Of a stretch of DNA of 64,000 nt, positions 13,021-22,475 are shown in pieces. Each line of letters starts with the position of its first letter. Position 1 is the first letter of the stretch. The stretch comes from Olleya namhaensis. GTDB taxonomy: Bacteria > Bacteroidota > Bacteroidia > Flavobacteriales > Flavobacteriaceae. The stretch covers positions 62,001 to 126,000 of the forward strand of contig NZ_FORM01000008.1 of assembly GCF_900114005.1 (NCBI RefSeq), written 5' to 3'. The notes under the pieces are model-generated. The model searched no databases. It was not told the origin of the DNA and saw only the letters and a list, made by a program, of their open reading frames with translations. Position numbers and translations under genes: made by a program.

Positions 13021-13125
13021 GCGTGAAGGATTGAACGGGTTGTCTGAAATCCTTTTTGCCTAAGCAAAAAGATTGAGTAGTGAAAGCCTGACTTTTTTGT
13101 GAAGAATGAGCAAAAAAGGCACGCC
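13021..13125. repeat. Structured intergenic repeat, copy A
   Basis: It shares AAGGATTGA (13026-13034) and GTGAAAGCCTGAC (13080-13092) exactly with copy B at 21134-21231. Pairing potential: an outer stem GCGTG (13021-13025) with CACGC (13120-13124); AAGGATT with AATCCTT inside; a hairpin CTTTTTGC-CTAA-GCAAAAAG (13052-13071); and a hairpin CTTTTTTG/CAAAAAAG (13092-13118). Hairpin arms differ entirely from those of copy B while pairing is kept. It lies in the gap between the divergent rhomboid and rarA genes, 28 bases before the rarA start. The strand on which it acts is not known. Confidence 0.75.
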
Positions 13126-21133: not shown

Positions 21134-21231
21134 GCGTTAAGGATTGAGCAATCTGTTTGAGCTCCTCGCAGAGAGCGAGTTGTGAAAGCCTGACGGTTGT
21201 CCTGATCTAAAATCAGGATAACAGTAACGCC
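21134..21231. repeat. Structured intergenic repeat, copy B
   Basis: It shares AAGGATTGA (21139-21147) and GTGAAAGCCTGAC (21182-21194) with copy A at 13021-13125. Pairing: an outer stem GCGTTA (21134-21139) with TAACGC (21225-21230); a hairpin CTCGC-AGAGA-GCGAG (21165-21179); and an 11-bp hairpin GTTGTCCTGAT/ATCAGGATAAC with one wobble (21196-21222). The outer stem changes a G-C pair of copy A to T-A, a compensatory change. It sits between the stop codon of the permease gene (21240) and the promoter of the cysteine synthase-type gene. Confidence 0.75.
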
Positions 21232-21239
21232 CAAATTAT

Positions 21240-22475
21240 TTAATCAAATCTAATAGCCTTTACAGGCGAAATTTTAGAAATTATATAAGATGGTATTAAC
21301 AGCATTAATAGGCATAATACAAATGTCCCAATATTTAACGCTATTATATAACCTAAGTTTATATAAACCGGTACTGCCGATACATGATAGGTTTTTGGAT
21401 CTAATGGAAATAGTCCAAAATACTTTTGAAGCATTAGTAAACTTATCCCAATTAAATTACCCCAAAACAGTCCTTTTAATATAAGATATGCCGCGTTATA
21501 AAGGAAAATTTTACGGATGCTATTATTGGCGCTTCCTAAGGCTTTTAAAATTCCAATCATTTGTGTACGTTCTAAAATTAGCACTAATAATGCGGTTATC
21601 ATGTTTATCCCTGCTACTAAAATCATGATACCAATGATAGCGTATATGTTATTATCAAAGATTTTAATCCACTCAAAAATCATTGGGTATTCTCTGTCTA
21701 CCGTTTTGGCATTTAAGGTAGATGGGACTTCTTTAAAAATTGCATTTCCTGTGGCTTCTAATGTATTAAAATCTTCTATAAAAACTTCGAAACGTCCAAC
21801 TTGATTGCTATCCCATTTGTTTAAACGCTGGATTTGTTTGATATCTCCGATAACATAAAGCTGATCCATTTCTTGCAAACCAGAATTGTAAACTCCAACT
21901 ATATTATATGTTACTACGCGCGGTGGTTTGGTAGAGTCTTCCCTTAAAAAGTAGGTATTTATACGGTCGTTTAATTTTAATTGTAGCCTATTAGCCAGAT
22001 ATTGCGATACTAAAACATCGGTACTAATATCCTTTGTGTAATCGGGTAATTTACCTTCTATTAAAAATTCTTTAAAATATTGCCAATCATAATCTGCACC
22101 AACACCTTTTATTACAATATATTCAAAATCGTTTTCTAATCTTATTATTCCTGATTTTGTTGCTGTACCTTGGACATGTGTTACTTCTGGAATATTTTTA
22201 AACTCGGGATAAAAATCTTGTTGGGTAGTTATTGGTCTTATGCTTTCTTGTGAGTTGTTGGTATCGTAATTTTCGATAATAGTGTGTCCATTAAAGGCTA
22301 TTACTTTTTCTCTAATTTTTTGTTGTAAACCAATTCCTGTCGCAATAGCTATCATCATTACAATAATACCCAATGCAATTGCTACGATACCAATTTTTAT
22401 TATTGGTGCCGATATACTACTTTTATACGCTTTACTATCAATTATGCGTTTAGCTATAAAAAACTCGAAATTCAA
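21240..22475 (-). CDS. LolC/LolE-like ABC transporter permease (FtsX/MacB fold)
   Basis: The 411-residue protein has one N-terminal membrane helix (IGIVAIALGIIVMMIAIATGIGL), a periplasmic domain of ~220 residues, and three C-terminal helices with the FtsX motif ALLVLILERTQMIGILKALGSANNSIRKIFLYNAAYL. This is the topology of lipoprotein-releasing and MacB-type permeases. In many Bacteroidota one such protein serves as LolC/E. The start codon is TTG at 22473-22475; an in-frame stop lies three codons upstream, and MNFEFFIAKRI is the family N-terminus. The partner ATPase is not adjacent. It is divergent from the NamZ-like gene with only eight bases between starts. Confidence 0.9.
   Translation of the reverse strand: MNFEFFIAKRIIDSKAYKSSISAPIIKIGIVAIALGIIVMMIAIATGIGLQQKIREKVIAFNGHTIIENYDTNNSQESIRPITTQQDFYPEFKNIPEVTHVQGTATKSGIIRLENDFEYIVIKGVGADYDWQYFKEFLIEGKLPDYTKDISTDVLVSQYLANRLQLKLNDRINTYFLREDSTKPPRVVTYNIVGVYNSGLQEMDQLYVIGDIKQIQRLNKWDSNQVGRFEVFIEDFNTLEATGNAIFKEVPSTLNAKTVDREYPMIFEWIKIFDNNIYAIIGIMILVAGINMITALLVLILERTQMIGILKALGSANNSIRKIFLYNAAYLILKGLFWGNLIGISLLMLQKYFGLFPLDPKTYHVSAVPVYINLGYIIALNIGTFVLCLLMLLIPSYIISKISPVKAIRFD

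Follow-up and report, generated by a model that had tools for sequence, protein, structure and literature searches.

The two structured repeats that stand out in the Olleya namhaensis window (the whole stretch of 64,000 nucleotides analysed here), copy A at 13021-13125 and copy B at 21134-21231, both on the + strand, belong to a large family of scattered folded cassettes that forms a sister type to the Flavo-1 motif. The original prediction, made from the two copies, of a selected, covarying structure present in many copies was borne out: the family is dispersed, and its covariation lies far above that of shuffled alignments. We call the kind of cassette found as A and B type I. Our preferred reading, which we give about an even chance of being right, is that A and B belong to a Flavo-1 superfamily of REP-like, non-autonomous cassettes, copied or exchanged by way of a folded strand and situated at the borders of transcription units.

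Structure and folding strand of the cassettes

Much of the predicted architecture was confirmed by a sequence check. Both exact boxes, AAGGATTGA (box 1) and GTGAAAGCCTGAC (box 2), occur in A and B in the same order, together with the outer stems (P1) GCGTG/CACGC in A and GCGTTA/TAACGC in B, and the P4 hairpins CTTTTTTG/CAAAAAAG in A and GTTGTCCTGAT/ATCAGGATAAC in B. The proposed inner hairpin stands for copy A (CTTTTTGC/GCAAAAAG) but not for copy B, where CTCGC/GCGAG has to give way to the supported stem GCTC/GAGC. The boxes had been described as single-stranded; they are in fact paired with each other (AGG-A-TT against AA-G-CCT, then a tandem G.A), and these pairs covary. Two features are additional to the prediction, a four-base helix, P2b, and a conserved TGTYTGA stretch. 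The order of elements in the refined fold is P1, P2 (box 1 against box 2), a tandem G.A, P2b, the bulge, a U.G or G-C pair, a second tandem G.A, P3 and P4.

In copy A, the 5' arm of P1 (GCGTG, 13021-13025) pairs with CACGC (13120-13124), which is followed by a terminal C at 13125. Box 1 (13026-13034), terminating in the tandem G.A, pairs with box 2 (13080-13092), the 3' side of P2; the P2b 5' arm ACGG (13035-13038) lies opposite TAGT (13078-13081), and P4 spans 13092-13118. The conserved stretch TTGTCTGA (13040-13047) is a type I signature, and the P3 hairpin AAATCCTTTTTGC..GCAAAAAGATT (13048-13074) is a Flavo-1-like stem, judging from its sequence and its alignment to Flavo-1; all of these parts are on the + strand. 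Since copy A combines the signature TGTCTGA with the Flavo-1-like stem AATCC..GATT, we regard it as an intermediate between type I and Flavo-1. Of the Flavo-1 inner arm it retains only the ATCC..GAT stem, and its nearest relatives are the cassettes at the same site in other genomes. Copy B is a type I cassette, likewise read on the + strand: P1 pairs GCGTTA (21134-21139) with TAACGC (21225-21230), P2b pairs GCAA (21148-21151) with TTGT (21180-21183), P3 is GCTC-CTCGCAGA-GAGC (21161-21176, from the type I alignment), and box 2 and P4 occupy 21182-21194 and 21196-21222.

The covariation is overwhelming in two alignments made in different ways. In an alignment of 55 distinct rows fitted to the covariance model, 93.3% of the cells were paired and 104 both-sided changes were counted, against 25.5 in shuffles; pairing fell to at most 46.2% when the partners were slid. 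When 35 type I sequences, hand-picked for short arms, were aligned with MAFFT and without fitting to the model, the refined structure had 95.2% pairing and 75 both-sided changes against 22.6 in shuffles, with at most 43.6% pairing after sliding. In the same 35 sequences GCTC/GAGC, taken together with the U.G or G-C pair beyond the tandem G.A, is 97.7% paired and includes two both-sided pairs, whereas the alternative CTCGC/GCGAG is 80.7-82.9% paired and shows zero both-sided changes. P3 also occurs as GCAC/GTGC (L042) and GCGC/GCGC (L253). The four pairs of P2b occur in 22 arm combinations in 71 sequences, among them AAGG/CCTT, ATGG/CCAT, GTGG/CCAC, GGCA/TGCC and GCAA/TTGC. Past the second tandem G.A, 23 of the 35 sequences have a U.G pair and 12 a G-C pair; in the 71 sequences, where the search pattern allowed T or G facing G or C at this place, we observed 57 T.G, 14 G-C and neither of the two remaining combinations.

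The + strand is the folding one, because the wobble cells of P2b comprise 43 G.T and 0 A.C in the 71 sequences, collected with a descriptor that permitted G.T and barred A.C in P1 and P2 and left P2b free; the helix contains, in addition, 37 G.A cells and 6 of other non-standard kinds. The fitted alignment has 15 G.T against 1 A.C, a ratio that the model fit itself favours. Single-sequence folding gave z values of -2.74 (copy A) and -3.45 (copy B) for the + strand and of -2.43 and -3.10 for the - strand, which folds nearly as stably, so folding energy is no guide to the strand. Tandem G.A and U.G pairs are equally typical of RNA and of folded DNA.

Distribution of the family and its relation to Flavo-1

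The proposed search of the genome and of its relatives with a covariance model recovered further copies in which the stems are kept. The model (R1) was built from four copies, including copy B and excluding copy A, and some of its matches are Flavo-1-type copies. In the O. namhaensis genome it found 22 matches at E<=0.001, a number that rises to 26 at E<=5; the held-out copy A was recovered at E=1.3e-10 in the whole-genome search, and copy B, itself part of the model, at E=6.8e-25. Matches occur in 22 of 40 genomes of the order (own genome included): in all 10 genomes of the genus, with 8-27 matches each, in 11 of 15 other genomes of the family and in 1 of 15 from other families. Across the class, under stricter filters, 8 of 198 genomes (own included) have a match at E<=1e-6. 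The cassettes are about 75-150 nt long. One type I copy of 75 nt had no blastn match in phage or plasmid collections.

Comparison with Rfam, also proposed at the outset with Flavo-1 as an example, upheld the relation to that motif, while copies A and B fall short of its score. No Rfam family matched the 64-kb window at gathering score. Copy A reaches 21.1 bits (E=0.019) against the Flavo-1 model (RF01705), whose cut-off is 42 bits, and neither copy B nor its type I counterpart in G007 matches it at E<=0.01. A and B, both below the gathering score, were thus rejected as Flavo-1 proper. Among 20 own-genome loci compared with Flavo-1 at E<=0.01, the type II copies matched and no others; part of the own-genome copies, such as L050, L052, L053, L054, L055 and L058, are Rfam Flavo-1. 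Flavo-1 itself has 33 matches in the O. namhaensis genome at E<=0.001 and is present in 26 of the 40 genomes, own included. The two types share the P2 frame GGAT..AGCC with its covarying pairs, type I and many Flavo-1 copies share the outer ends GCGTTA..TAACGCC, and both types are found in the same genomes and, by exchange, at the same orthologous sites. They differ in the inner part, where type I has P2b, the TGTYTGA bulge and GCTC/GAGC, and Flavo-1 has an arm GTGGCATCC/GATATAAC with symmetric loops.

Flavo-1 is listed for Bacteroidetes in the excerpted text of its description in 2010 (Weinberg et al., PMC2864571), is named without a function in an excerpt of a later paper (PMC9029176), and is reported, in the extracts consulted, as widespread in Flavobacteriaceae and so far function-less. 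Titles and opening lines of abstracts, few of them from subscription journals, contained no account of the type I form, of cassette exchange or of the stop-codon rule described below.

Several further forms of cassette were noted in passing. Some high-scoring Flavo-1 copies are without P1 and are framed by TAGCCC..GGAAATAGCTCC, a second architecture (L117-L123 and several of L332-L346, from G028, G036 and others). Cassettes of a third type, GATTGCAGTGAAAAGCCC..GAGGACTTGCAACGG, have the same ends (L167, L171 and L142), and two of these (L167 and L171) sit upstream of rarA in two Tamlana species. Box 1 of three different cassettes is interrupted after GATT by an extra hairpin, similar in all three (..TTCATTCTTATTT.. 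or ATGAATACTATTT.., then TCGTGA..; L242:9906-10096, L258:14272-14479 and L279, the last being the region upstream of rarA in G001). Long, A+T-rich P3 arms occur in type I cassettes at L237:5068-5219, L239:9952-10104 and L240:9925-10075, each some 515 nt ahead of a 16S rRNA gene, and also at L261:235-386, L047 and L048. At L044:1501-1595 (G000 C22:662108-662202) the inner arm is a near-perfect long palindrome, GGTCAGGCTATCGC..GCGATAGCCTGACC, and the orthologues differ. In the own genome, some 620 nt separate a Flavo-1 copy (L035:804-878, - strand) from one of type I.

Fixed sites with changing cassettes

We located the sites of A and B in the other genomes through the neighbouring gene, independently of the element. 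The copy B site is occupied by a cassette in all 10 genomes of the genus. In eight it is a Flavo-1 match at E<=1e-5, seven of them over the cut-off and the one in G008 at 41.6 of 42 bits; 7 of these 8 cassettes were missed by the typing script and were typed by eye and by their match to the Flavo-1 model. Only O. namhaensis and G007 have type I here, with the P2b arms GCAA/TTGT and AAGG/CCTT, respectively, and because the arms of the two type I cassettes differ, the sequences point to probably two separate replacements at this site. At the copy A site a cassette was recognised by eye in 8 of the 10 genomes; it is decayed in G004, carries the box 1 insert in G001 and G009, and is missing from G007 and G008.

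Such exchange extends to other sites. Of the 32 sites that two or more genomes share, 10 carry mixed types, and none of these depends on an 'H' label of the script, of which 4 in 9 were wrong (L050, L260, L298 and L076); 2 of 141 cassettes were left unassigned. The type differs in 3 of 20 pairs with flanks at least 90% identical, in 14 of 75 at 80-90% and in 17 of 41 below 80%, the pairs sharing sites and so being not independent. In the closest swap, a type I cassette in G004 (L231) and a Flavo-1 cassette in O. namhaensis (L294) lie between flanks that are 96.0% identical. Homology of the flanks extends up to the cassette or P1 ends, for example at L128 and L228. Among 247 flank comparisons, in a set of sites biased towards filled ones since most loci were fetched for holding a copy, there was no clean empty site and no target duplication, so it is from copy number alone that mobility is deduced. 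At first sight 17 of the 247 looked near-empty; by eye, the only real absences are at rarA in G007 and G008 and at one site in comparison with G028, from another family, and these gaps hold other sequence. The intergenic sites are old and fixed, while the type of cassette at them changes.

Placement relative to genes

The placement of the cassettes was analysed on 137 copies, a subset made up of the best or listed matches from the genus genomes and some others, which flank similarity grouped into 68 sites, 65 of them usable. Copies without a recognisable P1 starting with G were excluded, genes were taken as mechanical open reading frames of at least 60 amino acids, and each site was counted by one representative. 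The genes next to A and B are, by Pfam, rarA, a rhomboid gene, an FtsX-like permease gene and that of a PALP enzyme. At 30 of the 65 sites, that is at 30 of the 41 with a facing gene, at most 20 nt separate the 3' end of the cassette from that gene's stop codon, and in 27 of the 30 the distance is 4-11 nt; for copy B, it is 8 nt to the stop codon of the FtsX-like permease gene (minus strand, 21240-22475). Uniform random placement gave a mean of 11.0 and a maximum of 21 such sites in 20,000 runs. The 5' end is within 20 nt of a stop codon at 9 of 32 sites, so that 30 of the 39 stop-adjacent ends are 3' ends (one-sided p=0.0005); the split is 24 against 6 within the genus and, less clearly, 6 against 3 in other genera. 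An earlier variant of the count (median per site, counted by hand) gave 33/46 against 6/32. In the most frequent arrangement (24 of the 65 sites), the folding strand is antisense to the gene on either side.

Beyond the 3' end the flank goes on as C[A/T]AA, perhaps an additional piece of the cassette, and the base before GCGTTA is commonly T or C; the 3'-end motif matches at a third place, 63813, where no cassette precedes it. Promoter-like boxes TAnnTTTG occur within 60 nt downstream of 24 of the 137 copies, against 6.5 in shuffles; by eye, they are partly promoters of the next gene, at several sites with a sense gene farther off. A hand count by replication strand in G004 gave about 19 against 10, a bias too weak to convince.

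These placements bear on an explanation that we consider unlikely, namely that the cassette is a one-way transcription boundary. Polymerase arriving from the 5' side would make the + RNA, whose fold would stop or destabilise that transcript and so keep antisense transcription away from the 3' end of the facing gene, or read-through away from the next promoter. Selection for the + strand fold (G.T without A.C in P2b), the position of the 3' end directly at the stop codon of the facing gene and the TAnnTTTG boxes past the element at several sites with a sense next gene would all fit such a role. However, TTTTT occurs within 15 nt 3' of the element in just 8 of 137 copies, so the cassette is not an intrinsic terminator, a candidate function that we rejected for lack of the T-run after the hairpin; moreover, a boundary role leaves copying and swapping unexplained and has no known factor to act through. 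A bolder combination, which we put forward as doubtful, would have a dedicated machinery swap the cassettes like-for-unlike at fixed border sites, where they would serve the host as interchangeable one-way borders. Such a machinery would recognise the folded + strand and the common ends, which would amount to homing without a target sequence of its own.

Copy A and the region upstream of rarA

Copy A ends 28 nt before the ATG of rarA (13154), as originally stated, and the gene name is supported by the Pfam domains MgsA_C and AAA. Its implied role as a rarA leader found no support. Across the 80 named rarA loci that we examined, some of them shortened by contig ends, a cassette is found upstream of the gene in 14 at E<=0.1 and in nine at E<=1e-5, always within about 160 nt and in 14 of 14 cases on the + strand. 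P1 takes the forms GCGTG/CACGC, GCATG/CATGC (L192, L198 and L221) and GCGAG/CTCGC (L151) at these loci. The constant strand, the compensatory changes of P1 in several genera and the short distance from copy A to the start codon would suit a cis-regulatory mRNA leader; so would the excerpted data from F. psychrophilum, in which several 5' transcribed regions overlap Flavo-1 (PMC9723704). The same excerpts record these overlaps in sense and antisense alike, with many Flavo-1 matches outside transcribed regions and no functional clue (PMC9723704). Against a leader, too, the next gene is in sense at only 24 of the 65 sites, and both neighbours are antisense at another 24. Furthermore, a promoter-like TAATTTTAC or a close form is found at 53 of the 80 rarA loci, including all 14 with the element (a raw count without shuffle control), and at 40 of these 53 loci it begins 12-13 nt ahead of the start codon of rarA, that is past the element. 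Because this box lies between element and gene, we think from the sequence that copy A is situated upstream of the promoter of rarA. We therefore consider an ordinary mRNA-leader role unlikely and see little chance that the family as a whole acts in this way.

Two cassettes at rarA lie on the other side of the gene: L159 (E=0.0004) and L170 (E=0.07) are on the - strand about 6 nt past the rarA stop codon (hand count), consistent with the stop-codon border rule. In some cassette-free rarA loci (L284 and L285, and similarly L179), this gap contains a different short hairpin, GATTCCTGTTTTCACAGGAAT or a near form of it, upstream of the gene.

Comparison with REP elements and other repeats

Like the REP and BIME elements of enterobacteria, the cassettes are numerous, folded, intergenic and often placed a few bases past a stop codon; E. 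coli REPs lie within 15 nt of stop codons according to the part of the report consulted (PMC12306157). They are unlike these elements in their bigger, three-armed fold and in their direction, biased towards the stop codon, and they are without the REP foot GT[AG]G, only T or C being common before GCGTTA. The want of a GTAG or GTGG foot speaks against a classical REP moved by a RAYT (Y1/HUH) transposase, although subclass 2.6 RAYTs of Bacteroidetes are described, in the excerpt at hand, as having atypical structures that lack the GT[AG]G tag (PMC6006769). The repeats of these subclass 2.6 (group 5) RAYTs agree with the cassettes in phylum, in being folded and in having no such tag.

The distribution of the transposase is at odds with such a mover. 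Matches to Y1_Tnp (RAYT/IS200) occur in 14 of the 40 genomes, and none was found in 6 of the 10 genomes of the genus, all six of which carry copies. They are associated with Flavo-1, being present in 13 of 26 genomes with and 1 of 14 without it (p=0.013), an association behind which genome size may lie. In a REPtron the RAYT gene is flanked by copies, whereas the type I model at E<=0.1 found 0 copies within about 1.5 kb on each side of 30 Y1 loci (of 46 listed matches), including both of the own genome. The RAYT was accordingly rejected as the mover, and we hold a classical REP origin to be improbable. The own RAYT-like gene (L033:1237-1809), assigned to subclass 2.6 by motifs alone, has a partly duplicated 5' part and another repeat, GCTAGCGCTCGTCTGTGACGAGTGACG, adjoining it, and no cassette copy.

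The BOX elements of pneumococcus are modular intergenic repeats, as the cassettes are, and differ from them in sequence and build. A likeness of the cassette ends to integron attC sites, which we had considered, was dropped. A family of trans-acting sRNA genes, the Rfam type label of Flavo-1 being Gene; sRNA, is very improbable: the conserved structure has RNA-like G.A and U.G features and the 60 nt upstream contain a loose promoter box slightly more often than in shuffles (23/137 copies against a mean of 13.2 and a maximum of 21), but the strict upstream box TAnnTTTG is within the shuffle range (17/137; mean 9.6, maximum 20), a -33/-7 promoter pair was found upstream of 0 of 137 copies, the downstream T-run is as rare as stated above, and tens of copies are mutually replaceable at a site.

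Implications

In the non-autonomous, REP-like reading that we prefer, a machinery acting on the folded + strand and on the conserved P1 ends would copy or exchange the cassette in the form of a folded single strand. The cassette would persist at the borders of transcription units because it does little harm there, or because it helps to separate neighbouring units. Added to the picture of Flavo-1 are the folding strand, the outer stem, a sister type, sites that are fixed while their cassettes are exchanged, and a directed placement at gene borders. An RNA motif that had stood unexplained thus becomes a testable question about gene-border elements and their replacement in place.
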